The notes beneath the pieces are model-generated. The model ran no database searches. It saw nothing but the letters and a program-made list of their open reading frames with translations, and was not told the origin of the DNA. The translations under genes were made by a program, and so were the position numbers. A stretch of 64,000 bases of DNA from Dyella lipolytica (GTDB lineage: Bacteria; Pseudomonadota; Gammaproteobacteria; Xanthomonadales; Rhodanobacteraceae): assembly GCF_030160075.1 (NCBI RefSeq), contig NZ_BSNQ01000003.1, positions 924,625 to 988,624 of the forward strand. The letters run 5' to 3'. Every line of letters starts with the position of its first letter. Positions within the stretch are counted from its first letter, which is position 1. Positions 41 through 57,835 of this stretch are shown in pieces.

Positions 41-2992
41 ATGAGCACGAACGTGTTGGTTCATTCGGAGACTCAAGGCGATCCGTCCAGCACGGACTAT
101 GAGATTTTCTCGTTTGGGCCTTACAAGCTCTTCTCGGCTCAACGTTTACTGGAGCGGTCGGGACACGCCGTCAAGCTGGGTGGTCGTGCATTTGACATCT
201 TGATGCTGCTGGTTAGGCATGCCGGCGAGGTTGTAACGCACCGCCAAATCCATTCCACCGTTTGGGCAGGGCTGATCGTAGACGGAGGTAGCATCCGTTT
301 TCATATGTCAGTTTTGCGCAAGGCGCTTGGAGGTGCACAGCTGAGCTGTGAATATATCGTTAATGTACCCGGTCGCGGATATTGCTTTGTAGCGCCGGTC
401 ACCCGTCTGTCCTCAGTCAGTCCCGCGGCAAAAAAAAATCGCGACACTTCTCCAACAGCGTCCGTGCATAGTTTGCCGCCAGTGTTGGAGCGCATGATTG
501 GACGGCAGAAAGCCATTGGCGATATTAGTAGCGAGTTGCTCGCCGAGCGGTTCGTAACCATTGTCGGGCCTGGTGGTATCGGCAAGACGACGGTTGCGGT
601 AGGGATTGGGCATTCATTTTTTGCGAAGTTTCCTGGCCCGGTACAGTTCGTGGATCTGGCCAGCGTACGGGAGTCCAGCCAAGTTGCAGCAGCCGTCGCA
701 ATCGCCATCGGTCTGCAAATTCGGACTGAGGATCCTGTTCCAAGCATTTTGACAGCGCTGCGGACATGCCAAATGCTGCTGATCTTTGATAGCTGCGAGC
801 ATGTCTTGGATGAAGTTGCGCCGCTCGTCGAACAGATCTCTGCATGCGCTTCAGAGGTTTTCATTCTGGCAACATCTCGCGAGCCTCTTGGGGCGGAGGG
901 TGAGCATGTTTTCAGACTGCAACCACTGCAGATACCTTTAGAAGGCGCGATCATCACCGCCCGGGAACTGATTGAATATTCGGCGATAGAGCTATTTCTG
1001 GAGCGTGTGCAAGCCGGAGGCTCTCGTATCGAGTTGAACGATGCGGATGTGGAAACTGTGATTGCTATTTGCCGCAGGCTAGATGGCATGGCCTTGGCGA
1101 TCGAACTTGCTGCAAGCAGGGTACAGGCGTATGGCCTCCGTAAGACGGCTGACCTTCTGGGCCACCAGTTCTCACTTCTCTGGCCGGGGCGGCGAACTGC
1201 TCTTCCTCGCCACCAGACGTTAATGGCCACTTTGGACTGGAGCTACAACTTGCTTTCGTCGGCGGAGCGCCGACTGCTTTACCGACTTTCCGTGTTCATC
1301 GGAGCATTCGATCTCGAAGGAGTCATGGTTGTAACCCAAGCTGCCGCTAACTTTTTCGAGCCGGAGGACAACGCAGACCTATCCAGTCTCGTGGCGAAGT
1401 CTCTCGTCGTTGCGGAAGCATCTGGTGAGCGGACGTGTTACCGACTCCTCGACACCACGCGCAACTACGGTCTTGGAAAACTAGCAGAGTCGGGCGAAAT
1501 GGAGGAAGCAAACCGGCAGCACGCCAGATACTACGAACGGGTGCTGATTCGCCACGCGCAGATCGAACAGGAGACTGGCGAGTGGCCTCGTGCCTTGGCA
1601 TCGAATCTCAATGACATTCGTGCGGCAATGAGCTGGGCTTTGTCAAAAGGCGGCGATGTTTCTCTTGGTGTCCGTCTTGCCGCATATTCGACGTCGCTAT
1701 GGTTAGGACTAGGGCTGTTGCCGGAATGCAGAGAGAGGATGAAACAAGCCGCGTCGGTTGCAGATCATAGTGAAGCGACGATCGAGGAGAAAATGCTGAT
1801 TCAAATGGCGCTTGGCTCAACCGTCATGTTCACTGTCGGACTGGGTGAGGCATTTCGGACATCTTGGACCAGCGTTCTTTCCATGGCTGAAGAAATTGAC
1901 GATAAACAGCATCAGCTGAATGCTTATTTGGCGTTGTGGGCGCAACAGATTCGCGCGTTGAATGCAGGCGAGGCATTGATGCTCGCGCGACGTTGCGACG
2001 CAGTAGCGGGCAAATTTGGAAAAGCGGGACCGAAGGCAATGGCTCTTTGGATGCTTGGCTTATGCGAACATCACACTGGCCGTTATGAAAGTGCCAAGCG
2101 CCATCTCGAGGACGCTCTTTTGTCGGAAGACGACGCGGACCGGATGTTGCAGTTGCGTCACTTTGGTCATGATCGCCGAGTGGATGCTCTTGGCGTATTG
2201 TCGAACACTTTTTGGATGCTTGGATGCACGGCGGATGCACTAGAAACAAGTGCCATGGCCGTTGCCGAAGCACACCAACTCGATTATCCGATTCCACTTT
2301 GCATCGCACTTTCCTGGCACTGTTTTAATCTCTACGTGATTGGGGCTGAATGGTCTGAGGTGGAGCGCCACGCCGTTACCTTAATTGAGCATTCCCGGCA
2401 TCACGGAATAGAGGCTTACCAGGGATTTGGCATTTGTCTGCAGGCCTTGTCAGGGAAGCCTGAGATCGATGCAGAAGAGACTGCATCGATCGTTGCGAGT
2501 GGAATTAAAATGTTGGTCCGCGGGCAATACACTGCATTTAATCCCATCTTTCAGGCAGACGCAGCATTGGTGCTGGCAGAAGCGGGATTGCGGATTCATG
2601 CTGAAACCTTGTTTGCCACAATGCTCAAGGAAGATCGCAACCCAGATCACTGGTGCATTCCAGAGATCGTTCGCATCAAGGGGCAATTGGCACTGAGCCG
2701 AGGTAATAACAAAGAGGCCGAAAACTGCTTCAAGATGTCTATCGACTCGGCAGCCCGGCACGGATCCTTGGCTTGGCAGTTGCGCTCGGCCAATAGTCTT
2801 GCCGCCCTGTGGATCAACGAGGGGCGACAGGACTTAGTCTACGACCTCTTGGGTCCGTTGGTGACGTTGTTCAAAAAGGGCATCGTGAGCCGTGATTTAC
2901 AAAGGGCAAGAGCGTTGCTCAAGTCATTGACCCTAGCCTCAAGCAGCTCGCTGGCAGATAGTCCAAACACCCATGGTCTAGGCGAGAGCTAA
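41..2992 (+). CDS. Winged-helix/STAND-ATPase transcriptional regulator
   Basis: Large cytoplasmic regulator of 983 residues. An OmpR/PhoB-type winged-helix DNA-binding domain lies at about residues 22-118, ending in the typical GRGYCF strand. A STAND/NB-ARC-like ATPase follows: P-loop GPGGIGKTT near residue 175, Walker B-like LLIFDSCEH near 247 and the sensor-like TSREPL near 278. The C-terminal 450 residues are helical and TPR-like, probably for ligand or partner sensing. By family knowledge such proteins switch on ATP binding when a ligand meets the C-terminal part; the ligand here is unknown. The next gene is a paralogue in the same direction, so the pair looks like a tandem duplication. 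No target gene is evident. Confidence 0.9.
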   Translation: MSTNVLVHSETQGDPSSTDYEIFSFGPYKLFSAQRLLERSGHAVKLGGRAFDILMLLVRHAGEVVTHRQIHSTVWAGLIVDGGSIRFHMSVLRKALGGAQLSCEYIVNVPGRGYCFVAPVTRLSSVSPAAKKNRDTSPTASVHSLPPVLERMIGRQKAIGDISSELLAERFVTIVGPGGIGKTTVAVGIGHSFFAKFPGPVQFVDLASVRESSQVAAAVAIAIGLQIRTEDPVPSILTALRTCQMLLIFDSCEHVLDEVAPLVEQISACASEVFILATSREPLGAEGEHVFRLQPLQIPLEGAIITARELIEYSAIELFLERVQAGGSRIELNDADVETVIAICRRLDGMALAIELAASRVQAYGLRKTADLLGHQFSLLWPGRRTALPRHQTLMATLDWSYNLLSSAERRLLYRLSVFIGAFDLEGVMVVTQAAANFFEPEDNADLSSLVAKSLVVAEASGERTCYRLLDTTRNYGLGKLAESGEMEEANRQHARYYERVLIRHAQIEQETGEWPRALASNLNDIRAAMSWALSKGGDVSLGVRLAAYSTSLWLGLGLLPECRERMKQAASVADHSEATIEEKMLIQMALGSTVMFTVGLGEAFRTSWTSVLSMAEEIDDKQHQLNAYLALWAQQIRALNAGEALMLARRCDAVAGKFGKAGPKAMALWMLGLCEHHTGRYESAKRHLEDALLSEDDADRMLQLRHFGHDRRVDALGVLSNTFWMLGCTADALETSAMAVAEAHQLDYPIPLCIALSWHCFNLYVIGAEWSEVERHAVTLIEHSRHHGIEAYQGFGICLQALSGKPEIDAEETASIVASGIKMLVRGQYTAFNPIFQADAALVLAEAGLRIHAETLFATMLKEDRNPDHWCIPEIVRIKGQLALSRGNNKEAENCFKMSIDSAARHGSLAWQLRSANSLAALWINEGRQDLVYDLLGPLVTLFKKGIVSRDLQRARALLKSLTLASSSSLADSPNTHGLGES

Positions 2993-3064: not shown

Positions 3065-5890
3065 ATGGCAAGCGAGACGCAGTGGGTAAACGGAGATATT
3101 TCTTTCGGCCCATTTCGCTTGTCGAGGCTTGAAGAGCGTTTGGAGTGCAATGGCAATCCGGTCCACATTGGGGCGCTGGCATTCCAAATTCTGACGCATC
3201 TTGTAGAGCATTCCGGGGAAGTCGTCAGCAAGCAGGCTCTCATGGATGTCGCATGGCCCAATCTTTCCGTAGATGAAAGAAATTTGTTCTTTCATATCCA
3301 CATACTTAGGAAGGCTCTAGGAGATGGTGGGGATCGATACATTTTAAGCGTGCCTCGAAAGGGTTACTGTTTCGTAGGGCCCATCACAAGGCACGACGAT
3401 ACTCATTCGAATTCACGACTTACAATCTTTCCCATCGGACCGCCCCGTGCGATACCTCGACCTCTTCCGTTAATTGGTCGTGCACTATCGATCGAAGAAA
3501 TAGTTGTACTGCTTTCTTCTCACCGAGTCGTGAGTGTGACTGGACCGGGTGGGATGGGAAAGACATCCGTCGCAATCACAGTTTCCCGGCAACTTGCGTC
3601 GACATTTCGCGATGGTGCTTGTTTTGTAGAGCTTGGGCCCGTTGAAGATCAGGCTCGTGTGGCAGAGGCTTTTGCTATTGCCCTCGGTCTACCAGTCAAG
3701 AAAACACATCCGTTGGACGATATCTTACATTTCGTCGAATTGAAGGAAATGTTGATACTCGTAGACGGATGCGAGCATGTAATCGACGAAAGCGCAGAGC
3801 TTATTCAAGCGATTGTATCCGGCAGTGTCGGCGTTCGCATTCTCTCAACTAGCAGAGAGGCGTTGAGGATAGAAGGTGAATGGGTGTTCCAATTGCCCCC
3901 ACTGACTTCTGCTCCGATAGGTAAAGGATTATCTGCGTCCGCCATAGCTAGCTATCCCGCAATTCAGCTCTTTGTCGAACGAGCCGAGATGGCGATGAAT
4001 GCCGCACTGTCGGATCGGGACATTGACTTGCTGGTGCCAATTTCTAACAAACTAGATGGATTGCCTCTTGCGATAGAGCTTGCAGCCTCTCAAGTTTCAG
4101 CAATAGGGCTAGAAAAGCTAGCCGATGCGCTTGGGGAGCCCGCTGTTTTGGAATGGGCAAGAAAGGGCATCGTTCCGCCAGGGCATCAGACCCTCAGCGC
4201 AATGCTTGATTGGAGCTGTCAGCGACTGACCGATCAGGAACACTGCATGTTGCTGCATCTATCGGTATTTAGAGGATCTTTCGAATTTGATGCTGCAATA
4301 TTGATGATGCAAGAGACGATGGATGGCACCGAAGCGGCAATTGTACTCTCGCAGCTAGCCGCCAAATCATTGTTGCACGTTGATCGAACTGAAGTTGTTG
4401 TGCGGTATCGACTTCTTGATACCACGAAGGCCTATGCGCGCTTCAAGCTGATGGGGTCAGGTGATTATGCTGATGCATGTCGTAAACACGCTCGTCTATA
4501 CGTGGCTGCTTTAGCCGGCCTTCAAGATCCAAATTCGGATCGTCTACTACTGAAAGCCCTCGCAGGACAGATTGAAGATATTACGGCCGCCATTTCGTGG
4601 GGATTCCAGTCCGATGGCGATATCTCGCTCGCTGTGGATCTGGTTGTTGGCAGCATTCCGGTTTGGCAATTTCTCCACCTGCTTCAGGACAGAAAGGTCT
4701 ACATTGAAAAGGCTCTTGCCCATCTCGATCAAGTTAACGTAAGTGTGGATGTTGAGCTGACTCTTCGATGCAGTCTGGCATTCACGATTATGCTGATATC
4801 GGGCTTTACAGAGGAATTCACTGTCGCGTGGTGGCGAGTCCATGATGTCGCTGAAGCTACGCAGCGAGTGGATATGCAAATTGTTGCTCTGTTGCGTCTA
4901 TGGTCGCAACAGGTACTGCTGTCAGATGCGCAGAAGGCTGATGATTTCTCAAATAAGTTCCAACGCCTTGCGCAAACGAGTGAAGGAGCATTGTGGACCG
5001 GAATAGCTGACTGGTATCGCGGTTATCTGAGGTATCAGTCTGGCGACTTCCTGGGCGCGCGAATCTTTCTTGAACGAGCTGCGAGCGAAAGTAGGCCATC
5101 TTCGATAGATATCCAGCAGAAGGTCTATGGTTACGATTGTCGAGTAAGTGCCATGTCGCATTTATCTAACACGATCCTCTTGCTAGGAGATGTTGGGCGT
5201 GCCACAGAAGTTGCTAAGCAGGCTGTCGAGCTGGGGTTGTCTGAAGCGGATGATGTTTCGATATGTAGCGCTCTTTCCGTGGCAACGCACAATCTTATTT
5301 TGATAGGCAACATCGAAGAGGCGGAATCCTTAGCTCGGGAGTTTCTTAAACAAGCAGAGGAGCGCGCGCTAGGCAATTTCTACAGTCTCGCTCACGCCTA
5401 CACTGGCTTACTCAAGCTATGGACGGGCGACAGGGGAGGGCTCAAGCAGGTGGACGATAGCCTGGTTCATATGACGAACCTGGGATATCCAGCTTGGGTG
5501 CGCGCATTCACAGTCGAGCGTCTACACGTCCTGATCGAGCAGGATCTTGTTAGAACGACTGGCATGGGTGCGGCAGAGCTAAGCACATCTGAAGCGGACT
5601 TATGGGGTTGGTACTTAGCGGAAGCTATTCGCTTAAACGGCCGGCTTGCTCAGATCAATGGCGATATCTTGGAGGCCGAAAGACTGTTTCTTGCTGCCTT
5701 AGAAGTTGCTCGTTCGCAGTCATCGCCATTTTGGGAATTGCGAGCGGCAAATGACCTTGTGCAGCTATGGTCTTACGATAAAAGAATACATAGCGGCCGC
5801 GTTCTACTTGAGGATATTTGTTCAAAGTTCTCGAGTGACAAGCCCACAAAGGATCTGATACGCGCGAAATATCTTCTCCGCAACTTTTGA
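3065..5890 (+). CDS. Winged-helix/STAND-ATPase transcriptional regulator, paralogue of the upstream gene
   Basis: 941 residues with the same architecture as its neighbour: winged helix at about 12-110 (ends GYCFVGP), P-loop GPGGMGKTS near residue 160, Walker B-like LILVDGCEH, sensor-like TSREAL, then a long helical TPR-like C-terminal half. It starts 72 bp after the previous stop, so the two may be co-transcribed. No strong ribosome-binding site precedes the ATG. The two proteins align throughout, including the LLDTT motif after the ATPase module, yet are clearly diverged. This suggests an old duplication with separate ligands or targets. Function beyond regulation cannot be assigned. Confidence 0.9.
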   Translation: MASETQWVNGDISFGPFRLSRLEERLECNGNPVHIGALAFQILTHLVEHSGEVVSKQALMDVAWPNLSVDERNLFFHIHILRKALGDGGDRYILSVPRKGYCFVGPITRHDDTHSNSRLTIFPIGPPRAIPRPLPLIGRALSIEEIVVLLSSHRVVSVTGPGGMGKTSVAITVSRQLASTFRDGACFVELGPVEDQARVAEAFAIALGLPVKKTHPLDDILHFVELKEMLILVDGCEHVIDESAELIQAIVSGSVGVRILSTSREALRIEGEWVFQLPPLTSAPIGKGLSASAIASYPAIQLFVERAEMAMNAALSDRDIDLLVPISNKLDGLPLAIELAASQVSAIGLEKLADALGEPAVLEWARKGIVPPGHQTLSAMLDWSCQRLTDQEHCMLLHLSVFRGSFEFDAAILMMQETMDGTEAAIVLSQLAAKSLLHVDRTEVVVRYRLLDTTKAYARFKLMGSGDYADACRKHARLYVAALAGLQDPNSDRLLLKALAGQIEDITAAISWGFQSDGDISLAVDLVVGSIPVWQFLHLLQDRKVYIEKALAHLDQVNVSVDVELTLRCSLAFTIMLISGFTEEFTVAWWRVHDVAEATQRVDMQIVALLRLWSQQVLLSDAQKADDFSNKFQRLAQTSEGALWTGIADWYRGYLRYQSGDFLGARIFLERAASESRPSSIDIQQKVYGYDCRVSAMSHLSNTILLLGDVGRATEVAKQAVELGLSEADDVSICSALSVATHNLILIGNIEEAESLAREFLKQAEERALGNFYSLAHAYTGLLKLWTGDRGGLKQVDDSLVHMTNLGYPAWVRAFTVERLHVLIEQDLVRTTGMGAAELSTSEADLWGWYLAEAIRLNGRLAQINGDILEAERLFLAALEVARSQSSPFWELRAANDLVQLWSYDKRIHSGRVLLEDICSKFSSDKPTKDLIRAKYLLRNF
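5433..5440 (+). other. KOPS-like octamer (GGGGAGGG), pointing toward dif
   Basis: Matches the E. coli FtsK-orienting polar sequence GGGNAGGG on the + strand, that is toward the dif site at 53053. A single octamer means little alone; the set is discussed in the findings. Confidence 0.4.
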
Positions 5891-11413: not shown

Positions 11414-12439
11414 ATGAATCGTTCAGATACTGGGGTAGGGACCTTGGACAATCGCAGGCATCAAGGCGTTGCGCTACTGCTCATCATGATGATGGCCTTG
11501 CTTGAGTTCTGCTGGCCGGCATCGGCTGCGTCCAACGAGCCCACGTCCGCGGGCATCGCGGTCATTGCCGCCAACAACGATGGTCAGTGGAATCAGCAAG
11601 ACGCAAGTGTCCGTTTCCAAATAGAGCGGACCTTCTATCAGACGCGTTTCTTCATAATCGCCTGCATTGTCGCAGTCATCCTGTTGGTGATCGGACTTGT
11701 CGTGTTGCAGATGCGGCAGATAGCGGCAAAGCTGCGTGATCGCCTGGAAGTGCGTCATGCCGAGCGCGAACGCATCGCGCGCGAGCTGCACGATACGTTG
11801 CTGCAAGGCATCCAGGGACTGATCTTGCGCTTTCAAGCAATCGCGGAGCATATCCCTGAGAAGGACCCCATACGCGTGATGATCGATCAGGCATTGGATC
11901 GTGCCGATGGGGTGCTGGTCGACGGACGAGATAGGGTGCGCGATTTGCGCATGACTGAAGGCACCGCTAAAGATCTTGCCGTGACCTTTGCGGCCCTAGG
12001 CAAGGAACTCTCAGCCGACTATCCGGTGACATTCAGGGTTGTATCGAGTGGCATACGACATGAGATCGATCCAGCGATCCGCGAGGAAATCTATCTGATC
12101 GGACGCGAGGCTTTGCTCAATGCCTTCCAGCATGCACAGGCGCGCGAGATTGAAGTCGAGCTCTGCTGCGACTTCAAGCAACTGCGTGTATGCGTGCGCG
12201 ACGACGGTATTGGCATCGATCCGAAGATCCTCGATGCCGGAGGCAAACCGGGCCATTGGGGGCTTGTAGGCATGCGCGAGCGCGCAACTTGCGTTGGCGG
12301 TCAGTTGATGATTTGGGCGCGACCAGGAGCAGGCACCGATGTCGAGTTAACGGTTCCCGCTTCCATTGCCTATGTACGCAAGCACAGTGTCCGGTGGAAG
12401 CGCTTGAAGCACATGCTCAGCTGGGGCCGTGAAGCGTGA
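11414..12439 (+). CDS. NarL-type sensor histidine kinase with a deleted sensor domain
   Basis: 341 residues. Signal-like segment at about 18-40, then a short stretch at 51-78 (AANNDGQWN ... FYQT) that matches the end of a Y_Y_Y domain. A membrane helix at about 79-100 follows, then a HisKA_3 dimerisation region with phosphoacceptor His126 (ARELHDTLLQG), then an HATPase domain (DDGIGI, GHWGLVGMRER). Full-length relatives carry a long periplasmic two-component propeller before Y_Y_Y. Here it is missing while signal peptide and kinase stay in frame, so it may be a natural deletion derivative. It is convergent with a NarL-type response regulator, its likely partner. Confidence 0.88.
   Translation: MNRSDTGVGTLDNRRHQGVALLLIMMMALLEFCWPASAASNEPTSAGIAVIAANNDGQWNQQDASVRFQIERTFYQTRFFIIACIVAVILLVIGLVVLQMRQIAAKLRDRLEVRHAERERIARELHDTLLQGIQGLILRFQAIAEHIPEKDPIRVMIDQALDRADGVLVDGRDRVRDLRMTEGTAKDLAVTFAALGKELSADYPVTFRVVSSGIRHEIDPAIREEIYLIGREALLNAFQHAQAREIEVELCCDFKQLRVCVRDDGIGIDPKILDAGGKPGHWGLVGMRERATCVGGQLMIWARPGAGTDVELTVPASIAYVRKHSVRWKRLKHMLSWGREA
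11433..11440 (+). other. KOPS-like octamer (GGGTAGGG), pointing toward dif
   Basis: Exact GGGNAGGG match on the + strand inside the start of the kinase gene. Confidence 0.4.
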
Positions 12440-25948: not shown

Positions 25949-27670
25949 TCAACCGAAGGTGAAGGCATAAACCTGCACGCCGGGGGCGAGGAAGGTGATT
26001 TCGAAGGTATGTTCACCGTTGCCGTTGGCCAGTCGAACAAGTTGGTAGAGTCGCTGCGCTGCGACGGTGCCGTTGCCATCCGTATCAATGTCCACACCAT
26101 GACTGGAGCCGGGTGCCTGGCCATCGATCAGCACGCGAAAACGTACGGGCTTGCCGTCGCGACCGGGGCCCAGTACCAGATGCAAATCACGACCGCGGAA
26201 TCGATAGACGATGCGTCCGTTGGCGAGGTCAAGCCGCGCCTTGTCGTCGTTCACCGTCCAGCGCCCGTCGAGTGCCCACTGGTTGGCCATCAGCGTCTGT
26301 GGTGCGTGATAGGTCGAGCTATCGTCTTGCGCCAACTGGCCGCCGGCAAAATTCTCCGCGCGTTCGTAGCCCAGGTAAGTTTCCGGCGAGCGTGTGGTAT
26401 TGCCTGAGACTGCGGCCTCTGCTCCCTGGGCGTTCGGTTGCACGTAGCCGCCAGGCAGATTCTCCTGGCCGGCTTCGGCGAGCAGTTGACGGATCGCGTC
26501 CTCGCTCTGCTGATAATCGCCTTCGCCGAAGTGATGGTGGCGAATATGTCCCTGCGTGTCGATGAAGTAATGCGCAGGCCAATACTCGTTGTCGAAGCCC
26601 TTCCAGATGGCATAGTTGTTGTCGAGTGCGACCGGATAGTCGACGCCCAAGTCCTTCACGGCGTTGGCGACGTTGCCCGGATCCTTCTCGAAGGCGAACT
26701 CGGGCGCGTGCACACCGATCACCACTAGGCCGTGATCTTTGTATTTATCGGCCCAGCCACGCACGTAGGGCAGGGCGCGAATGCAGTTGATGCAGGAGTA
26801 GGTCCAGAAGTCGACCAGTACGACCTTGCCACGCAGTGACCGTGTCGTGAGCGGTGGGCTGTTGAGCCACTGGGTTGCGCCGTCGAGCGAGGGTATCTCA
26901 CCTTCCACCGACAACGGCTCACCTGCCTTGACAGTAGGTTGCGCAGGAGCAGCAGGGCGTACAGCGTCGATCAGCTTCTGTTCGATCCCGCCGGTGCTGG
27001 CCAGTGACACGCGAGTCAGCAATCCGGTGTCCAGCCCCAGTGCGATGCTGGCAACGCCGGCCAATACCAGCACACCCAGGACTCTGCGAACCCATTCGCC
27101 TGCACCAAGCGAACGCTTCATCAGAGCGAACACGCGCCCGCCGATGGCGAGCGCCAGTGCAAGCGACGTCGCAGCGCCGGCTGCGTAAGTGAGCAGCAGC
27201 AAGGTGGTTTGGACACTGGCGCCTTTGAGGGCCGCCCCCGTAAGCAGAAGGCCCAAGATGGGACCTGCGCATGGTGCCCACAGCAGTCCGGTGGCGACGC
27301 CTAACCCCGCCGCCGAAAGCACCGAATCATCCTCGTTGCCGCCACGCTGAGTGAGCTTGTTGCCGAGCGCTACGAATGGACGGCTAATCCATTCGGCGGC
27401 GTGCTCGGAAAGCAACGTGAGACCAAGCACAGCGAGCACTGCCAAGGCGACGAAGCGGCCGTATTGGTTTGCGTGGATGGCCCAGCCACCGCCAACAGCG
27501 GCCAGTGTGGCGACTGCGGCGAAGGTAAGCGCCATGCCCAGCAGCATGGGCAGACCATTGCGCGCGAACGGGCGGTCTGCTCGCGCGAATACAAAAGGCA
27601 GCACTGGCAGGATGCACGGACTAAGGATGGTCAGTACACCGCCGAGGTAAGCAAGGATCAGTAAGAGCAT
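25949..27670 (-). CDS. DipZ-like membrane thiol-disulfide protein (CcdA + thioredoxin)
   Basis: 573 residues from the ATG that begins the first membrane helix; no clear ribosome-binding site is seen. Domain order: CcdA-like transmembrane part at about 1-245 with the Cys motifs LSPCILPVLPF and WAPCAGPILG, a periplasmic TlpA/thioredoxin-like domain at about 285-430 with active site WTYSCINC, and a C-terminal beta domain of about 140 residues. DipZ proteins pass electrons from cytoplasmic thioredoxin to periplasmic disulfides. The thioredoxin part closely resembles the separate protein at 56582-57121. Confidence 0.9.
   Translation of the reverse strand: MLLLILAYLGGVLTILSPCILPVLPFVFARADRPFARNGLPMLLGMALTFAAVATLAAVGGGWAIHANQYGRFVALAVLAVLGLTLLSEHAAEWISRPFVALGNKLTQRGGNEDDSVLSAAGLGVATGLLWAPCAGPILGLLLTGAALKGASVQTTLLLLTYAAGAATSLALALAIGGRVFALMKRSLGAGEWVRRVLGVLVLAGVASIALGLDTGLLTRVSLASTGGIEQKLIDAVRPAAPAQPTVKAGEPLSVEGEIPSLDGATQWLNSPPLTTRSLRGKVVLVDFWTYSCINCIRALPYVRGWADKYKDHGLVVIGVHAPEFAFEKDPGNVANAVKDLGVDYPVALDNNYAIWKGFDNEYWPAHYFIDTQGHIRHHHFGEGDYQQSEDAIRQLLAEAGQENLPGGYVQPNAQGAEAAVSGNTTRSPETYLGYERAENFAGGQLAQDDSSTYHAPQTLMANQWALDGRWTVNDDKARLDLANGRIVYRFRGRDLHLVLGPGRDGKPVRFRVLIDGQAPGSSHGVDIDTDGNGTVAAQRLYQLVRLANGNGEHTFEITFLAPGVQVYAFTFG
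26768..26775 (+). other. KOPS-like octamer (GGGCAGGG), pointing toward dif
   Basis: Exact GGGNAGGG match on the + strand, opposite to the coding strand of the DipZ-like gene. Confidence 0.4.
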
Positions 27671-27845: not shown

Positions 27846-28604
27846 TCAGTTCGTCTGCGTTGCGGCAGTCTCGATCACTCGAGCGACTGCGGCGGGCTGG
27901 GAGATAAAAGAAGCGTGGCTTCCGGCAACCTCGGTAACTTTGGCGCCCGAACGTTGATACATCCAGCGCTGAAGTTGAGGGCTGATGACGCGATCCTCAG
28001 TGGTGAGGATGGCGTAGCTGGGCTTGGTACGCCATGCCGCCACCGTGATGGGTGTGGCCATGGCTTTCTGAGCGAGCGGCTGCTGCGAGTCCGCCAGGAA
28101 CTGAGCCTCCGGGGCAGGGAGATCCTCTGCATAGGTCGCACGGAATTTGGCCGCGGGGATGTAGAAATATTTGTCCGGCGTAGCTCGCATCGCATCGTTG
28201 GGCGCGGCGAACTTCGACAGCAGTTGACCACTGGCTTCGCCGACATCAGGTTGGAGTGCGGATACATAGACGAGCGCGCTGACCTTCGGGTCGGCACCGG
28301 CCTCCGTGATCACGGAGCCGCCATAGCTATGACCGACCAGCACAACGGGGCCATTCTGCTGATCCAGGATGCGTTTGGTGGCATCGACGTCATCTGCAAG
28401 GCCAGTAAGTGGCTCCTGCACGATAGTCACGTGAAAACCATCCTTGGTCAGGATGTCGTGGATGGCACGCCAGCCTGAGCCGTCCACCAACGCACCATGG
28501 ACGATGACAATATCTTTCGCGGCCGGCTGCGACGCGGCGTGTGCGATCGTGCCGCCCAGAGCGAGCAGGAAAGCAACAGCAATCTTCTTTCGTAGTGTGA
28601 GCAT
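27846..28604 (-). CDS. Secreted small alpha/beta hydrolase (first of three paralogues)
   Basis: 252 residues from the ATG with GGAG nine bases before it. Sec signal at about 1-24 (LALGGTIAHAAS). Fold motifs: IVIVHGALVDGSGW, nucleophile elbow VGHSYGG with Ser, TEDRVISP acid region and C-terminal VAGSHASFISQP with the His. It closely resembles the proteins at 52081 and 58701. Family members are often called salicylate esterase- or MenH-like by homology; substrate unknown. Periplasmic. Confidence 0.88.
   Translation of the reverse strand: MLTLRKKIAVAFLLALGGTIAHAASQPAAKDIVIVHGALVDGSGWRAIHDILTKDGFHVTIVQEPLTGLADDVDATKRILDQQNGPVVLVGHSYGGSVITEAGADPKVSALVYVSALQPDVGEASGQLLSKFAAPNDAMRATPDKYFYIPAAKFRATYAEDLPAPEAQFLADSQQPLAQKAMATPITVAAWRTKPSYAILTTEDRVISPQLQRWMYQRSGAKVTEVAGSHASFISQPAAVARVIETAATQTN
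28112..28119 (+). other. KOPS-like octamer (GGGCAGGG), pointing toward dif
   Basis: Exact GGGNAGGG match on the + strand within the hydrolase gene. Confidence 0.4.
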
Positions 28605-30305: not shown

Positions 30306-30339
30306 GGCGATTCGGGACTGTTATCGAGGGTAGGGAAGG
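30306..30339 (+). repeat. Dispersed 34-bp repeat, copy R2
   Basis: GGCGATTCGGGACTGTTATC followed by a tail containing GGGTAGGG, between the GlxA-like gene and the DUF4440-like gene. Confidence 0.7.
30328..30335 (+). other. KOPS-like octamer (GGGTAGGG) inside repeat R2
   Basis: Exact octamer on the + strand, located in the tail of the dispersed repeat. Confidence 0.45.
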
Positions 30340-35299: not shown

Positions 35300-36091
35300 T
35301 CAAGCTGATTGTTCCTGCGGTGGAGCATCGGGACGAAAGCCCAAGTACCGAGATGGGCCGTCTGCGATTGCTCTTGCGTACATGGGCGTTGCACCGGCCA
35401 GGCATAGCGCATCAAATGTTGCGGCTTGGTTCGTCACCATCGACCAATGGCTTCGCGACGACCTATCGTCTACGACGGGAGGAGTCTGTTGCAATACGGA
35501 CAGAAGCGCTTCGGGGGAAGGGCAGTGAGCCATGAAACCTTCATTCGACAGGCTCGCACTCTGGATGTCCAATTCTTTACAGGCCCACGCCTTGACAGCG
35601 ATATCAAGCTGCTCGCCGTGACGTAGGAGCGACATATGAAGCTGTGTCTGCGCGGCCACAATCTGGTTGGCGCGCACGAAAGGAGTGGGGGACGTCCACG
35701 CTTCCGGTGGGCATTGTTTATGGCTGGGCGTCACGGATAAGAAGGGGTTCACTTCGGCCGGATAAATGCGGCAAACATGCGGTCTGTTGTCATAGATGCC
35801 GCATCGCATGTCGCTGCCAAGGTTAGGGCATGCACCCTTGAACGTCGCTGCGAGTACGACGATGACACGAATGGGAAGCTCGCCGCTCCAGGCGGGAAAT
35901 GAGCGTTGACGCTTATGCATCGCCGGAGCGTCTGATGTCGCGGGCTCAGTCACCCAAGGAACCGCCTCGCATAGCACTTCCACGGTGCCCCCCCGTTGCA
36001 GCCAAGCAACAGCCTCTGGACGTGTGAGTGGAAGCCGCAAGTCATGGCAACATTTGCCGCACTGCGTGCAGCTGAAATTGAGATCGGACAT
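35300..36091 (-). CDS. YkgJ-family cysteine-cluster protein
   Basis: 263 residues, cytoplasmic. The N-terminus has the CxxC..CC cluster CTQCGKCCHDLRLPLTRPEA and a second Cys group ACPNLGSDMRCGIYDNRPHVCRIYP. Together these match the YkgJ/zinc-or-iron chelating family, thought to bind a metal or FeS centre. The C-terminal half is family-variable. Role unknown; it is possibly linked to metal handling given the nearby bufferin genes, but that is inference only. Confidence 0.85.
   Translation of the reverse strand: MSDLNFSCTQCGKCCHDLRLPLTRPEAVAWLQRGGTVEVLCEAVPWVTEPATSDAPAMHKRQRSFPAWSGELPIRVIVVLAATFKGACPNLGSDMRCGIYDNRPHVCRIYPAEVNPFLSVTPSHKQCPPEAWTSPTPFVRANQIVAAQTQLHMSLLRHGEQLDIAVKAWACKELDIQSASLSNEGFMAHCPSPEALLSVLQQTPPVVDDRSSRSHWSMVTNQAATFDALCLAGATPMYARAIADGPSRYLGFRPDAPPQEQSA
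35515..35522 (+). other. KOPS-like octamer (GGGAAGGG), pointing toward dif
   Basis: Exact GGGNAGGG match on the + strand within the YkgJ-like gene. Confidence 0.4.
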
Positions 36092-36740: not shown

Positions 36741-36822
36741 GGCAATACGATCCGGACGATGTGGGCGTCGCCGTGGCGCCCATCCTTGGAAAAAAACAGA
36801 ACAGATCACAAGTTGATAAGCG

Positions 36823-39843: not shown

Positions 39844-39851
39844 GGGAAGGG
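39844..39851 (+). other. KOPS-like octamer (GGGAAGGG), pointing toward dif
   Basis: Exact octamer on the + strand, directly before dispersed repeat R3. Confidence 0.45.
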
Positions 39852-43547: not shown

Positions 43548-44489
43548 ATGATTGATGCACTCAATGATTTCCTGGCGGTCGCCGTCTGCGGAAGTTTCTC
43601 TCAGGTGGCGAAGAAGCAGGGTGTCGCTGTCTCGTCGGTGACACGCAAGATTGATTGGCTTGAAGCAGAAGTCGGTTCTCGGCTGTTCCACCGTAGTTCG
43701 CGCCGCGTCGTGCTCACTGATGCGGGCGAACAATTCATACCGCGCGCGCGAAACATCCTCACCGAACTCGCTGAAGCGAAAGAAGCAATCTCGTCGGCCA
43801 ACGCCGATCCGCGCGGACTTCTGTCTGTCACAGCACCGGCGGTTTTCGGGCGCCGGCACATAATGCCTGTGATCGCCAACTTTTTGCGGCGCTATCCCGA
43901 TGTTGAGGTCGAGCTACATCTCAGCGATCAAGTCATCGATCTAGTGGAGCAACGTATTGATGTCGCCGTCCGTATTGGCTTACTTCCAGACAGCGATTTG
44001 CACGCGGTGACCTTGGCGCCGTTAAACCTAATCACCTGCGCAAGTCCGAGCTACCTAGAGCGCGCGGGAAAGCCTGAGGCGCCTGGCGACTTGTTGCACC
44101 ACGACTGCATCACCACCATGGCAACACCGGCGGCATGGGTGGGCACGTGGAGCTATGAGGGTCTCAACCGCGGTCATCCCTTCCCGGCTCGTGGCTGTCT
44201 GCGCACCGACGATAAGGAAGGCATGCTTCAAGGGGCGCTCGCTGGTTTAGGCATCGTGCAATTGCCCAGTTGGCTCGTTTTTGAAGATATACAAGCTGGT
44301 CGGCTGATCTCTTTGTTTGGCGACGTACCTCAGTCCCCGCAGCGTGTTCGGCCAGCTATCCATGCCGTACGTCTTCCCGGGCGTTCCCATGAAGTGAAGG
44401 CAAAACTTTTTATCGCACAGCTTCAACAAGCCGTGGGAGCGCCGGCGTACTGGGATCCGCTGCCAGTCGCCGGCTCGAGTTCGATCTAA
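43548..44489 (+). CDS. LysR-family transcriptional regulator
   Basis: 313 residues from the ATG that opens the helix-turn-helix (IDALNDFLAVAVCGSFSQVAKKQGVAVSSVTRKIDWLE). The substrate-binding domain at about 88-290 is of the CrgA/DmlR type (LSVTAPAVFGRRHIMPVIANFL, VDVAVRIGLLPDSDL). Most probably controls the divergent MBL-fold hydrolase. No ribosome-binding site is evident, so the mRNA may be nearly leaderless. Confidence 0.92.
   Translation: MIDALNDFLAVAVCGSFSQVAKKQGVAVSSVTRKIDWLEAEVGSRLFHRSSRRVVLTDAGEQFIPRARNILTELAEAKEAISSANADPRGLLSVTAPAVFGRRHIMPVIANFLRRYPDVEVELHLSDQVIDLVEQRIDVAVRIGLLPDSDLHAVTLAPLNLITCASPSYLERAGKPEAPGDLLHHDCITTMATPAAWVGTWSYEGLNRGHPFPARGCLRTDDKEGMLQGALAGLGIVQLPSWLVFEDIQAGRLISLFGDVPQSPQRVRPAIHAVRLPGRSHEVKAKLFIAQLQQAVGAPAYWDPLPVAGSSSI
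44178..44185 (-). other. KOPS-like octamer in the opposite orientation
   Basis: CCCTTCCC on the + strand, that is GGGAAGGG on the minus strand, pointing away from dif. It is the only contrary octamer I found left of dif. Confidence 0.35.
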
Positions 44490-45494: not shown

Positions 45495-46946
45495 ATGGCT
45501 ACGTCCTCCCATCTGCAAGTGGCTCGTAGTAGCACCCATCATTCAGCGCGCAAGGCGCGCCAAGCCATTGAAGCGCCGCTGCCGGCGCAGACGCATACGC
45601 AGTCGATCGACGAGCGGTTGGCGCTGGCAAAGTCGCTTCGATCGCAGTGTCCGCGCAAGTCGCAAGCGGGGTGGCATGCACCCAAACACCGGCGGGATGC
45701 TATTGAAACATTGATGGCCAATTCGGTGGGGCGGGTCCCCCATCTTGTGCCTATCCGATACGGCCGCATGATGGAATCGCCGTTCGCTTTCTATCGTGGT
45801 AGTGCTGCCATCATGGCTGCCGATCTGGCACATACGCCGTCTACGGGTATGCACTTGCAGGTCTGCGGTGATTGTCATTTGCTCAACTTCGGTGGCTATG
45901 CCACGCCCGAGCGGCGGCTTGTATTCGATATCAACGATTTCGATGAAACCAGCGTCGGCCCATGGGAGTGGGATTTAAAGCGCCTTGCTGCCAGTCTTTT
46001 CATTGCCGCACAGTCCAATGGCTTTTCCAAGGATGATGGGCGCGAAGCCGCCTGGCACGCGACAAGTGCTTACCGGGATCGCATGGCCGAATACAGTGAG
46101 ATGCCATTGTTGGATGCCTGGTACGATTTTCTCGATCTGAAAAAAATTATCGAGCAGATCGTCGATCCCGACTTGAAGAAGCTCGCCAAAACGCGGCTAA
46201 AAAAGGCGACGGAATATACGGCCCACACGAAGGAGTTCGTGAAATTGGCTGTAGCCGAGGGCTCGCCGCCGCGCATTCGTGACGAGCTGCCGCTCATCTA
46301 TCACGACGATAGCGGTGACCCAGCCAAGCGTCGCAAGGAACTCAATCGCGGGTTTGCGCATTATCGAGACACACTTCAACCTCAACGGCGGGTGTTACTG
46401 GATCGCTTCCGCCTTGTCGACGTGGCCATGAAAGTAGTGGGGGTGGGCAGCGTCGGAACCTATTGCGGCATTCTGCTTTTGGTCTCTGGCTCGGGCGACC
46501 CGCTTTTTCTGCAGTTCAAAGAAGCGCGTGAGTCTGTTATCGAGCCCTATGTCGGCGCGAGCGTTTACAAGCATCACGGCGAGCGCGTAGTGGTAGGGCA
46601 ACGCATGATGCAATCGGCAAGCGATATTTTTATAGGCTGGACCCACGGAATCGCACGCCAGTTTTACGTTCGCCAGCTGCGCGATGCCAAGATAACGCCA
46701 GACATCAGCGTGATGAAACCGCTCAACCTTCGTAACTACGCTGAACTCTGCGGCCGTGCTTTGGCACGCGCGCATGCGCGGACCGGCGATGCCGTTGTGT
46801 TAGCTGCCTATCTCGGAAAAAGCGACGCTTTCGCGGATGCGATAACTTCGTTCGCCGTCGATTATGCCGATCAGAATGAGCGTGATCACGACGCATTGAT
46901 ACGTGCTGTGCGTCAGGGACGCGTCGAAGCACAAGTTATTGAATAG
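45495..46946 (+). CDS. DUF2252-family protein
   Basis: 483 residues from the ATG with GGAG nine bases upstream; an ATG at 45477 is a weaker option. Kinase-like fold family: YRGSAAIMAADLAHTP, CGDCHLLNFGGYATPERRLVFDINDFDETSVGPWEWDLKRLAAS (resembling an aminoglycoside-phosphotransferase catalytic and metal site), VGVGSVGTYCGILLLV and RMMQSASDIFIGWTH. Cytoplasmic. No substrate is known for the family. Monocistronic by position, with a hairpin after the stop. Confidence 0.9.
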   Translation: MATSSHLQVARSSTHHSARKARQAIEAPLPAQTHTQSIDERLALAKSLRSQCPRKSQAGWHAPKHRRDAIETLMANSVGRVPHLVPIRYGRMMESPFAFYRGSAAIMAADLAHTPSTGMHLQVCGDCHLLNFGGYATPERRLVFDINDFDETSVGPWEWDLKRLAASLFIAAQSNGFSKDDGREAAWHATSAYRDRMAEYSEMPLLDAWYDFLDLKKIIEQIVDPDLKKLAKTRLKKATEYTAHTKEFVKLAVAEGSPPRIRDELPLIYHDDSGDPAKRRKELNRGFAHYRDTLQPQRRVLLDRFRLVDVAMKVVGVGSVGTYCGILLLVSGSGDPLFLQFKEARESVIEPYVGASVYKHHGERVVVGQRMMQSASDIFIGWTHGIARQFYVRQLRDAKITPDISVMKPLNLRNYAELCGRALARAHARTGDAVVLAAYLGKSDAFADAITSFAVDYADQNERDHDALIRAVRQGRVEAQVIE

Positions 46947-46953
46947 GGAAGGG
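46946..46953 (+). other. KOPS-like octamer (GGGAAGGG), pointing toward dif
   Basis: Exact GGGNAGGG match on the + strand at the DUF2252 stop codon. Confidence 0.4.
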
Positions 46954-50813: not shown

Positions 50814-50847
50814 GACGATTAGAGAGGGTTATCGAGGGTAGGGGAGC
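50814..50847 (+). repeat. Dispersed 34-bp repeat, copy R6
   Basis: GACGATTAGAGAGGGTTATC followed by a tail that contains GGGTAGGG, 97 bp before the AraC-type start. Confidence 0.65.
50836..50843 (+). other. KOPS-like octamer (GGGTAGGG) inside repeat R6
   Basis: Exact octamer on the + strand, 2.2 kb before dif and pointing to it. Confidence 0.5.
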
Positions 50848-50944
50848 AGCAGCTCCCGACCCATTGCTGCCATGGGTGCCTACCGGTGGCCGAGCTTCCC
50901 AAAGTGGTCAGCATGGCGGGAAGATGGCGGCCAGGAGGGCATTT

Positions 50945-51925
50945 ATGAAAGAAGGCGGAAGCAGCCAACCCCGTAGACAAGTCGGTGGGTTACAGGCTGA
51001 ATCGGGCGATACAGCTTTCGGAAAGCATCTTGCAGGTTGCTTTGGCGTACCCGAGCCTGACTTGCGCGCCGAACGCAAGCTGGAGCGGGGGACGATTGCG
51101 CTGTCGGAATTGAAACTCGATCTTCCGATGGCGGAACCAAGCGGCTCACTGGGCTGCGATGAAGCTTTTCTAGTGGATGTCCAACTCGCCAGCATTGTGG
51201 ACCACGAATACTGGTTGAACGGTCGATCCATACCTGTAGAACCTGCCGTGGCAGGCATGACCTATATTCACGACCTGCGGCTCGACCCCAGAGCGATGGT
51301 GCGCGAATCGACGCACTCGCTCCACTTCCGCATTCCACTCGCGACACTCAATGCGTTCTCCGACCAGAACGGGACTTCGCCGATTTCGGAGTTGATCCAC
51401 GGCCCGATGGTCGGCCGGGACGACCCGGTGATGAGATTTCTGTGTCAAGCGGCCTTGGCCGCACTCAGGGAACAACACATTGCCAGTGGATTGTTGCTGG
51501 ACGAAATTCTGAGTGCCGTGTGCGCGCATACGCTGGGACATTATGGAAATGCCAGCACCGCCGCTCGTCGCTATTCGTCCGGCCTGGCCCGGTGGCAGGA
51601 ACTGCGTGCGAAGGAAATGATGGATGAGCGCATGGACATCTCCCTCGCGGAGTTGGCGCTCGAATGCCAATTGTCCGTGACACATTTCGCCAGGAGCTTC
51701 CGGCGATCAATCGGCATGTCGCCCCATCAATGGTTGCTCGCCCGGCGCATCAGCAAAGCGAAGTTTCTGCTCGTTGAGTCAGACCACTCAATGGCACATA
51801 TCGCTTTGGAATGCGGATTCTCCAGCCAGTCTCACTTCAACGCCGCATTCAAGCAGTGCACGAAGGTGAGCCCTGGACGCTGGCGTCGCTCCTTCGCACC
51901 CTGGATCGATAGTCCCTCGGAATAA
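50945..51925 (+). CDS. AraC-family transcriptional regulator
   Basis: 326 residues from the ATG with AGGAGG five bases upstream; longer forms start before this site. N-terminal ligand part of about 190 residues without a recognised fold, then a pair of AraC helix-turn-helices at about 225-320 (ISLAELALECQLSVTHFARSFRRSIGMSPHQWL; SMAHIALECGFSSQSHFNAAFKQCTKVSPGRWR). The next gene, a secreted hydrolase, starts about 150 bp downstream in the same direction and is the probable target. Confidence 0.92.
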   Translation: MKEGGSSQPRRQVGGLQAESGDTAFGKHLAGCFGVPEPDLRAERKLERGTIALSELKLDLPMAEPSGSLGCDEAFLVDVQLASIVDHEYWLNGRSIPVEPAVAGMTYIHDLRLDPRAMVRESTHSLHFRIPLATLNAFSDQNGTSPISELIHGPMVGRDDPVMRFLCQAALAALREQHIASGLLLDEILSAVCAHTLGHYGNASTAARRYSSGLARWQELRAKEMMDERMDISLAELALECQLSVTHFARSFRRSIGMSPHQWLLARRISKAKFLLVESDHSMAHIALECGFSSQSHFNAAFKQCTKVSPGRWRRSFAPWIDSPSE

Positions 51926-52080
51926 TGTGTCGCTCGATCCCGACAAGACGTGCACGTGGGTTTTCGGTCGTTTTTTTGAAATTCGAGTCTGTTTTTCGAA
52001 AGAGACGACCATCCCGCCATGCTCTATTTCCTTCGCCCTACCAGCAATTCCATCTTCATTTGGGCGAAGGAGTTTCCATC

Positions 52081-52881
52081 ATGAAAACCAGGCAAAGAAT
52101 CTCGTGGCGTTCGCTTGTCGCCACGTCCCTTATCTGTCTATCGAGCGTATCCCTGACTATGAACAGTTCGTCCGCAGAGGCAGCTTCCGCAGCACCATCG
52201 CAGGTGAAGAATGTCATTCTTGTGCACGGCGCATGGGCGGACGGTTCAAGTTGGTCGAAGGTCATTCCTCTACTCAACGCAAAAGGCATGAACGTTGTTG
52301 CCGTACAACTTCCGCTCACGTCTCTGGCTGACGACGCCGCGACCGTCAAACGGGCTATCGCCCTCGAGGATGGTCCGGTCCTTTTGGTTGGACACTCCTA
52401 TGGTGGGGCTGTCATAACGGAAGCCGGCAACGATCCCAAAGTAAGGGGTTTGGTTTATGTCGCCGCATTTGCTCCAGACGATGGTCAGTCTGCAGGCTCC
52501 TTGGGAGCGACCATGGCTCCCCCTCCGTTGGCCGCCGAGGTTAAGCCGGATAGGGAAGGGTTCCTCAAGCTCACCAAGGCGGGCATCTACGAGAGTTTTG
52601 CCCAAGACTTGAGTGCGCCCGAGAAGGCGATCTTGTATGCCGCACAAGCACCCACCAGTGCAAAGTCACTGGGTGGCAACGTAACCAGCGCGGCGTGGCA
52701 CAGCAAACCTTCTTGGTACATCGTTGCTTCCGAGGATCGGGCGATTCAACCGGATCTTGAAAAAAGCATGGCAAACAAGATCCATGCAACCACGTCGACC
52801 ATTCCTTCCAGCCACGTTCCAATGCTTTCGCATCCCGACGTAGTGGCCGATGTGATTGAGCAAGCCGCTGGCTTGAAGTAA
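52081..52881 (+). CDS. Secreted small alpha/beta hydrolase (second of three paralogues)
   Basis: 266 residues from the ATG with GGAG nine bases upstream. Sec signal to about residue 36 (NSSSAEAASA). Motifs: NVILVHGAWADGSSW, nucleophile elbow VGHSYGG with Ser, ASEDRAIQP acid region and PSSHVPMLSHP with the His. It closely resembles the proteins at 27846 and 58701. Located periplasmically; substrate unknown, perhaps an ester or lactone. Downstream of an AraC regulator. Confidence 0.88.
   Translation: MKTRQRISWRSLVATSLICLSSVSLTMNSSSAEAASAAPSQVKNVILVHGAWADGSSWSKVIPLLNAKGMNVVAVQLPLTSLADDAATVKRAIALEDGPVLLVGHSYGGAVITEAGNDPKVRGLVYVAAFAPDDGQSAGSLGATMAPPPLAAEVKPDREGFLKLTKAGIYESFAQDLSAPEKAILYAAQAPTSAKSLGGNVTSAAWHSKPSWYIVASEDRAIQPDLEKSMANKIHATTSTIPSSHVPMLSHPDVVADVIEQAAGLK
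52553..52560 (+). other. KOPS-like octamer (GGGAAGGG), the closest left of dif
   Basis: Exact GGGNAGGG match on the + strand, about 0.5 kb from dif and pointing to it. Confidence 0.5.
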
Positions 52882-52953
52882 ACCTTGACCTGATTGCGCG
52901 AGTTGTCTGACCACGCCAGCGTAGCCAACACGCGCCGAGCTCCTTTCTACAAT

Positions 52954-52984
52954 GCAACCCGGGACCCGGAGGTTTCCGGGTTGC
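52954..52984 (+). terminator. Hairpin downstream of the hydrolase gene
   Basis: Perfect 9-bp stem GCAACCCGG / CCGGGTTGC with a 13-nt loop, 73 bp after the stop. No T-tract. Probable transcript end before the dif region. Confidence 0.5.
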
Positions 52985-53052
52985 GGTCTGAGAGGATGAC
53001 CCAACGGTCCGGTGGCAAGAAGCGTTGCGTTAGGTACTATGGCTATTACGTA

Positions 53053-53080
53053 ATTGCGCATAATGTATATTATGTCAAAT
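53053..53080 (+). other. dif: dif site, XerC/XerD chromosome dimer resolution
   Basis: 28-bp sequence with XerC arm ATTGCGCATAA, spacer TGTATA and XerD arm TTATGTCAAAT. It differs from the E. coli dif (from memory) at only a few bases, in the outer XerC arm and one base of the XerD arm; the central part and spacer are identical. It lies in a gene-free stretch of about 370 bp (52882-53249). KOPS-like octamers change strand here. This marks the terminus region of the chromosome. I see no second dif copy nearby, so no clear sign of an integrated Xer-using element. Confidence 0.9.
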
Positions 53081-53249
53081 TTGATTCGTAGCCTGAAATC
53101 GGCTGGCATGCGGCTTGCTGCCTGGATCTTCCGAACACATGGCGCTGTGCTGTGCCCAGGAAACGCGAGCGCCTGAACTGGATCTACCCTGCACTCGCAG
53201 AACACACAACGTTGAATCTAAATCGCGACGCACGGACCAACTAGCTAGG

Positions 53250-53618
53250 CTACCGCGTGCCGGAAACGACTGAGGGCTGACTCTTGGCACTGTTTACAAG
53301 GCCAGTGATTGCGCCGCGTATAGTTTCCACCGACGGCACGCTGGTGAGCATTTTTATTTCGCCTACTTGCGCCTCATACTCATTCAATAAATCAAGCAAA
53401 GCCAACACCATGTGCTTATAGGCCTGCGGTGCTAGGGAAACGGCTGCCTGCTCTTCGTTAACGGCTATACCGTTTTCGTCGTTAACAGTTCGAACGAATA
53501 CCAAGCCAAAGTCCGTAGCGGTGACTTTGAAGTTGACGGCATTTGCATAGAGTTCGCAAAAGCTAATCGAACGCTTGACCGGGGCACGTTGCAAGTTCGC
53601 TGGTGCGTCAGACATCAC
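53250..53618 (-). CDS. DUF3467-like small protein
   Basis: 122 residues, soluble. The central part (ELYANAVNFKVTATDFGLVFVRTVN, then VSLAPQAYKHMVLALLDLLNEYEAQVGEI) matches, from memory, the DUF3467 pattern of YAN..... T..DF.L.F followed by a S..  A...  L...L..YE..FG.I helix. Function of that family is unknown. It overlaps the upstream gene by 11 bp, so the three genes 53250-54381 form one unit. Codon use is AT-richer than in flanking genes. It is the first gene beyond dif. Confidence 0.7.
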   Translation of the reverse strand: MMSDAPANLQRAPVKRSISFCELYANAVNFKVTATDFGLVFVRTVNDENGIAVNEEQAAVSLAPQAYKHMVLALLDLLNEYEAQVGEIKMLTSVPSVETIRGAITGLVNSAKSQPSVVSGTR

Positions 53619-54396: not shown

Positions 54397-54404
54397 CCCT
54401 ACCC
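54397..54404 (-). other. KOPS-like octamer on the minus strand, right of dif
   Basis: CCCTACCC on the + strand, so GGGTAGGG read toward dif from the right. About 1.3 kb from dif. Confidence 0.5.
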
Positions 54405-55809: not shown

Positions 55810-56555
55810 GTGTCGTTCCCGTGCACCGTCACCGGCATGCTGAATACATAACCTTCGCTGCGCACAGTCTTGATGTACGTCTGCTCTTTCGCTTTGTCGT
55901 CGAGGCGCGTTCGCAAGCGACTCACCAGCAGGTCGATGGAGCGGTCGAAGAGTTCCGCATCCCTGCCCTGCGTAAGGTTGAGCAGCTGGTCTCGCGACAG
56001 CACGCGCTGCGGATGATCCAGGAACACGCGCAGCAATCGGAATTCGGCACCGCTCAGCGCAACGACGGTGCCGTCTTCGTCGATCAAATGACGCGCGGTG
56101 GTATCCAGACGCCAACGGCCGAAAGACAGGGTGTCGACCGTCTCTGTGATGCGAAGGTTCGGCGGCAGCATGCGCGTGCGCCGGATCACCGCCTTGATGC
56201 GCGCCAACAGTTCCCGTGGCGAGAACGGTTTGGCCACGTAGTCGTCCGCGCCCATCTCCAGGCCGATGATGCGATCGGTTTCGTCGTCGCGCGCAGTGAG
56301 CAGGAGGATGGGCACAGCTCGATGCTTGCCGCTGCGTAGCGTACGGCACAGCACCAGGCCGTCGTCGCCCGGCATCATGATGTCGAGCACGATCAGGTCG
56401 AACGCCGAGGTGTCCAGCTGCGCGAACATGTCGCGCCCGTCGACGGCCGCGCTCGCGCGCAGGCCGTTCTTGCGTAGATAGTCCACGACACCGGTGCGAA
56501 TGTCGTGATCGTCATCGACGACGAGGATGTGGTCGATGTGATCCATGTTGTTCAT
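55806..56555 (-). CDS. OmpR/PhoB-family response regulator
   Basis: 249 residues. Receiver domain at about 8-120 with VVDDDHDIR, phosphoacceptor in LIVLDIMMPGDDGL and KPFSPRELLARI. Winged helix at about 145-235 (LSGAEFRLLRVFLDHPQRVLSRDQLLNLT, VSRLRTRLDDKAKEQTYIKTVRSEGYVF). Starts 26 bp after the thioredoxin gene, hence same operon. Probably binds the GTATC-type repeats at 57226-57270, controlling both directions, and possibly the hydrolase promoter at 7028. Confidence 0.94.
   Translation of the reverse strand: MNNMDHIDHILVVDDDHDIRTGVVDYLRKNGLRASAAVDGRDMFAQLDTSAFDLIVLDIMMPGDDGLVLCRTLRSGKHRAVPILLLTARDDETDRIIGLEMGADDYVAKPFSPRELLARIKAVIRRTRMLPPNLRITETVDTLSFGRWRLDTTARHLIDEDGTVVALSGAEFRLLRVFLDHPQRVLSRDQLLNLTQGRDAELFDRSIDLLVSRLRTRLDDKAKEQTYIKTVRSEGYVFSMPVTVHGNDT
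55961..55968 (-). other. KOPS-like octamer on the minus strand, right of dif
   Basis: CCCTGCCC on the + strand (GGGCAGGG toward dif). Confidence 0.45.
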
Positions 56556-57165: not shown

Positions 57166-57173
57166 CCCTGCCC
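57166..57173 (-). other. KOPS-like octamer on the minus strand, right of dif
   Basis: CCCTGCCC on the + strand (GGGCAGGG toward dif), in the divergent region. Confidence 0.45.
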
Positions 57174-57418: not shown

Positions 57419-57835
57419 ATGTCTAACAACACCGTTCTCTATACCGCCCAGACCCTCACAACCGGTGGCCGCGATGGCCAGTCGCGCAGCAGCGACAACC
57501 GCCTGGACATCAGGCTGTCCCTGCCCGGCTCCAACGGCACCGGCACCAATCCGGAGCAGCTGTTCGCCGCCGGCTGGTCTGCCTGCTTCATTGGTGCGAT
57601 GGGTCGCGCCGCGCAGGAACTGGGCATCCATCTTCCCGCCGACGCTTCGGTGGCCGCCGAAGTGGATCTGAACAACGCGCCCGAAGAAGGCTTCTCCATT
57701 TCGGCCCGCCTGCAGGTGAGCCTGCCGGGACTCGACCTCGCCGTCGCCCAGTCCATCGCCGATCGCGCGCACCAGATCTGCCCGTACTCGAAGGCGACGC
57801 GCGGAAACATCAACGCCGTCATCACCGCCGTGTGA
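57419..57835 (+). CDS. ohr: Organic hydroperoxide resistance protein (Ohr)
   Basis: 138 residues from the ATG at the start of the OsmC/Ohr fold; a longer frame upstream only reads through the divergent region. Redox-active Cys56 (GWSACFIGAM) and Cys121 (HQICPYSKATRGN), as in Ohr. It reduces organic hydroperoxides with dihydrolipoamide or other thiols. First gene of ohr-bufA1-bufD-hydrolase-bufA2-bufB-bufC by direction and spacing. Control appears to be by the GTATC boxes; no OhrR gene is nearby. Confidence 0.93.
   Translation: MSNNTVLYTAQTLTTGGRDGQSRSSDNRLDIRLSLPGSNGTGTNPEQLFAAGWSACFIGAMGRAAQELGIHLPADASVAAEVDLNNAPEEGFSISARLQVSLPGLDLAVAQSIADRAHQICPYSKATRGNINAVITAV
57519..57526 (-). other. KOPS-like octamer on the minus strand, right of dif
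   Basis: CCCTGCCC on the + strand (GGGCAGGG toward dif), inside ohr. Confidence 0.4.

Follow-up and report, generated by a model that had tools for sequence, protein, structure and literature searches.

The 28-bp site and its surroundings

The window, by which we mean the whole analysed stretch of 64,000 nucleotides from Dyella lipolytica (hereafter the host), contains a 28-bp sequence, ATTGCGCATAATGTATATTATGTCAAAT, at positions 53053..53080 of the + strand, corresponding to G000:C3:977677-977704 in the genome assembly. The site lies between two genes, each about 170 bases away: to the left an alpha/beta-hydrolase gene on the + strand (51925-52881), and to the right a DUF3467 gene on the - strand (53250-53618). 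A mechanical open reading frame of 179 amino acids (52666-53205, - strand) overlaps the site; it is antisense to the hydrolase gene and was taken as noise. Directly past the hydrolase gene and 68 bases ahead of the site, a G+C-rich inverted repeat was seen by eye at 52954-52984, and it is perhaps a transcription terminator.

The form of the site is that of the dif type, with a 6-bp centre flanked by two 11-bp arms, and it is near the proteobacterial consensus. When compared with the dif of E. coli, there are 3 mismatches and 25 of the 28 bases are identical; positions 1, 2 and 24 are A, T and C here versus G, G and T in E. coli. The preliminary description of the window had already placed a near-E. 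coli dif around TGTATA at 53053-53080, and the 28-mer was found there exactly as written. According to position within the 28-mer, and with the arm names used in the consulted sections of PMC2731167, the XerC-binding arm is ATTGCGCATAA (53053..53063, + strand) and the XerD-binding arm is TTATGTCAAAT (53070..53080, + strand), the latter carrying the C at dif position 24 (window position 53076). The central hexamer between them, as read from the sequence, is TGTATA (53064..53069, + strand), which an excerpt of PMC2533119 describes as the canonical centre for most beta- and gamma-proteobacteria.

A search of the whole genome for the 28-bp site, as proposed in the preliminary description, was carried out with a pattern having 5 free positions and at most 3 mismatches allowed. 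It returned a single dif in the 4,049,300 bases of the 9 contigs; no better dif was found elsewhere in the genome with this pattern, and its backwards control had 0 matches genome-wide. For reference, about 1e-5 matches to the E. coli dif are expected per genome with at most 3 mismatches and equal base frequencies. In the 400 kb surrounding the site, the second-best place for the 28-mer has 10 mismatches, and no second dif-like site was found in that stretch.

Polarity of the KOPS-like octamers

The consensus of the E. coli KOPS is GGGNAGGG, as given in an excerpt of PMC2680272. The window contains 16 octamers of this pattern, compared with 5.5 expected (the mean of 100 shuffles, of which 0 reached 16). 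To the left of dif, 11 copies lie on the + strand and point towards it: GGGCAGGG at 264..271, 26768..26775 and 28112..28119; GGGGAGGG at 5433..5440; GGGTAGGG at 11433..11440, 30328..30335 and 50836..50843; and GGGAAGGG at 35515..35522, 39844..39851, 46946..46953 and 52553..52560, the last being the closest to dif on this side, at about 0.5 kb. The sole contrary copy within the window is GGGAAGGG at 44178..44185 on the - strand. To the right, all copies are on the - strand and again point towards dif, namely GGGTAGGG at 54397..54404, which is the nearest right copy (about 1.3 kb away), and GGGCAGGG at 55961..55968, 57166..57173 and 57519..57526. The counts are therefore 11+/1- on the left and 0+/4- on the right (Fisher p = 0.0027). 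The preliminary description had listed 15 of these octamers, all of which are real and on the strands it gave, including the contrary copy at 44178. It had also warned that copies might have been overlooked, and one further + copy, at 264, came to light. Its statement that only the reverse complement occurs to the right of dif is correct within the window (0+/4-) and does not extend beyond it, where 5 of the 39 copies in the 200 kb rightward are contrary.

The same trend was found on a larger scale. In the 400 kb around dif there are 31+/2- copies of GGGNAGGG on the left and 5+/34- on the right, so that 65 of 72 point towards dif, and of the 7 contrary copies 5 are on the right. The interval that best splits the + from the - copies is C3:977177-979021, and dif (C3:977677) lies inside it. 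When the same contig was sampled at 20 more stretches of 20 kb each, the 8 samples on the left had 18+/2- copies and the 12 on the right 8+/35-, with 10 of these 63 octamers pointing away from dif. Over the whole genome, GGGNAGGG occurs 205 times forward and 279 times reverse, and the backwards control pattern 136 and 146 times. We also counted the octamers over 40 kb per side in five Dyella relatives, which were chosen for having dif well inside a long contig, and obtained 44+/4- on the left and 3+/29- on the right (73/80 towards dif). The strand switch that had been noticed at the site within the window is thus present in the 400 kb, in the further samples of the contig and in five relatives.

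When the octamer patterns of the 400 kb were ranked by polarity score, GGGNAGGG, at 65:7, came first of 61,900 one-N patterns, i.e. those in which one inner position is left free and which occur 30 or more times, both strand readings being counted. In the plain fraction of copies pointing towards dif, it is first among the patterns with at least 40 copies, and is exceeded by the rarer GAGGGNAG (29:2). Of the plain octamers, 9,415 occur 15 or more times in the 400 kb, and GGGCAGGG (39:1) ranks first among them.

A block comprising an AraC-type regulator and the alpha/beta-hydrolase (50817-52995) ends 57 bases left of dif. This block is present with 94% identity in one relative (G011), where it lies across dif and is inverted; another piece of the window, 36198-36761, is also across dif and inverted in that genome. 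The two inverted pieces point to local rearrangement in the terminus region. Since the block is both across dif and inverted in G011, its GGGTAGGG (50836) still points towards dif there. The GGGAAGGG at 52553 is missing from G011. A polarity kept through the inversion is compatible with selection for it, as seen in one case only.

Controls for base composition and gene orientation

Octamers with the same base composition likewise tend to point towards dif. The other 55 patterns consisting of 6 G, an A and an N had, when pooled over the 400 kb, 822 of 1219 copies (67%) towards dif and 397 away. Together with the sign change of the GC skew near the same place, and with a few rare patterns that are equally one-sided (GAGGGNAG as above, and GGGGGNAG at 9:1), this lends something to the explanation that the octamer bias simply follows from gene orientation or from the G-richness of leading strands, and that the FtsK of this lineage reads some other motif. 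We nevertheless regard this explanation as very improbable. GGGNAGGG is at the top of the 56 same-composition patterns, several of which overlap one another, besides having the highest score in the one-N ranking, and its 65:7 differs from the pooled controls with p = 5e-6. With 67% in the pooled controls against about 90% for GGGNAGGG, skew accounts for part of the bias, but not for the 90%.

Gene orientation was considered with a crude greedy set of 327 open reading frames, 180 of them facing dif. The octamers were polarised 23:3 within reading frames facing dif, 26:1 within those facing away and 16:3 between reading frames. The bias is present in all three contexts, and it is equally strong in the frames that face away from dif; therefore gene orientation is not its cause. 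By the composition controls and the orientation table, skew or gene orientation as the only cause of the octamer bias was rejected. The conservation in the host FtsK of the residues with which the E. coli protein reads KOPS, described below, also argues against a different motif.

FtsK, XerC and XerD of the host

The gamma domain of FtsK is encoded at C3:416942-417121 (profile match 1.3e-27). Of the 72 residues searched, 5-69 align with the solved gamma-domain structure 2j5p (8.5e-26), and 4-70 with 2j5o, 2ve8 and 2ve9. These structures are of E. coli (2j5p among them) and P. aeruginosa origin. In the host the recognition helix has the sequence NRAARLIEQME, versus NRAARIIEQME in 2j5p. In E. 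coli FtsK, residues R1300, E1303 and E1306 contribute to the reading of KOPS, according to an excerpt of PMC2680272, and by our reading of the alignment the equivalents of all three appear to be kept in the host protein. The preliminary description had suggested that this lineage uses the same or a similar motif, and this is supported by the recognition-helix residues of FtsK-gamma as well as by the polarised octamers.

The two recombinases are encoded by separate genes, XerC at C2:175130 (340.8 bits) and XerD at C9:202827 (345 bits), both over the curated cut-off. The solved XerD structure 1a0p is matched by the host XerD at 2.7e-82 and by the host XerC at 8.3e-47.

Probable position of the replication terminus

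The cumulative GC skew of the 400 kb stretch changes sign near the site and has its maximum at 981886, 4.2 kb from dif; this is the outcome of the skew check that the preliminary description had suggested. Of the 20 further samples of the contig, 17 show the expected sign of the skew and 3 do not. A strong correlation of dif positions with the skew shift point is stated in the consulted part of PMC3025954. The earlier proposal that the window spans the replication terminus is in line with these data, being supported by both the octamer switch and the skew sign change at the site.

DnaA is encoded at C2:185389, and dif is on a separate contig (C3). For the relatives assembled as a single contig, the separation between dif and dnaA is 50.9% of the circle (G003) and 47.8% (G012), and in a further relative (G014), whose 4 contigs add up to about 4.3 Mb, the two are 2.28 Mb apart. 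As a side observation, the DnaA model gave 18 weak matches in contig C1 of G012; these are spread across the genome, have only a small number of different scores between them, and are probably IstB-like ATPases encoded by insertion sequences present in many copies.

Conservation of dif and variation at position 24

Within the genus Dyella, exactly one dif was found in 15 of 16 genomes, our own included, with at most 3 mismatches, and the single genome without a match to the pattern used is 91% complete. With a stricter dif pattern (one mismatch), a single match each was obtained in 66 of the 117 genomes of the host family, and the other 51 are without a match. The absent matches in the genus (1/16) and in the family (51/117) may be due to either divergence or gaps.

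Most of the family matches differ from E. coli at dif position 24. Of the 66, 41 carry A there, 24 carry C and 1 carries T, as counted by eye, and in a wider proteobacterial scan it is T in 103, A in 10 and C in 6 of the 119 loci listed. A blastn comparison of the window with the same 119 listed loci gave no match at 1e-10. Positions 23 and 24 of dif are described in the consulted sections of PMC2731167 as highly variable, and a contact between position 24 and the conserved XerD residue Q221 is predicted there. Since position 24 is known to vary, the A/C variant is marked for the lineage but of a known sort. The host family might have retained the E. coli KOPS word and yet shifted the half-site preference of its XerD, through residues other than Q221; we consider this unlikely. 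The glutamine equivalent to Q221 is conserved in the host XerD (with the numbering taken via an inferred offset of 2), and with this residue unchanged a shifted preference becomes less likely.

Discussion

We consider that the 28-mer is the chromosomal dif at the replication terminus of the host, where chromosome dimers would be resolved by XerCD under the control of FtsK and KOPS, with a probability of about 0.97; recombination, binding and translocation are deduced from E. coli and V. cholerae. What we saw directly and build upon are the site, which is unique at the sensitivity used, the polarity switch, the local skew maximum, the genes for FtsK-gamma, XerC and XerD, and the conservation in relatives. 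That the 28-mer should instead be the attachment site of, or one left by, a filamentous phage or another Xer-using mobile element, and not a working chromosomal dif, is hardly credible: integration of such elements at dif is described for Xanthomonas, Vibrio and other bacteria (consulted sections of PMC2731167), but a phage-made attachment site was rejected as no second dif-like site was found in the 400 kb (the next best having 10 mismatches) or in the genome with at most 3 mismatches, and, moreover, the site has the alpha/beta-hydrolase and DUF3467 genes some 170 bases away on either side, it is placed where the polarity switches and the skew has its local maximum, and it occurs once in 15 of 16 Dyella genomes with adjacent bases that differ among the ten relatives listed.

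For a chromosomal dif, the events would be as follows. An odd number of crossovers would leave the two sister chromosomes joined as a dimer, and XerC and XerD would bind the two 11-bp arms of dif. FtsK held at the septum would load on GGGNAGGG (KOPS) and so be sent to the terminus from either arm of the chromosome. On meeting XerD at dif, it would switch on strand exchange, by which the dimer would be resolved.

The dif locates the replication terminus and orients both chromosome arms of the host genome, which is of use in annotation and contig ordering, and there is good evidence for the E. coli KOPS word being in force in Dyella. The known system is extended and not changed by this. As for earlier work, no literature on dif, FtsK or the terminus in Dyella was found among the matches listed, as judged from titles and abstract openings, and the available part of the main text of PMC5993296 (AIMS) contains none of GGGCAGGG, GGGNAGGG, "Xanthomon-" and "Dyella".

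Comparison with known systems

Three systems can be set beside that of the host. Xanthomonas campestris belongs to the same bacterial order. In its strain ATCC 33913 the dif adjoins the skew maximum, as in the host, but the dif listed for it, TCCTGACATAATATACATTATGCGAAAT, is far more distant from the E. coli dif than that of the host (consulted sections of PMC2731167). For V. cholerae, GGGNAGGG was proposed from a similar ranking of one-degenerate octamers, GGGCAGGG included, whereas that organism has two chromosomes with differing dif centres and one dif was found in the host (excerpt of PMC2533119). With the dif/XerCD/FtsK-KOPS system of E. coli the host has in common 25 of 28 dif bases, the TGTATA centre, separate xerC and xerD genes, GGGNAGGG octamers that mostly point to dif from both arms, and the same recognition-helix residues in FtsK-gamma (for the last two, an excerpt of PMC2680272). 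It is unlike E. coli at dif positions 1, 2 and 24. The observation itself is confirmed, and the interpretation, in which function is assigned by strong homology, is supported: the site would be a well-behaved further instance of a textbook system.
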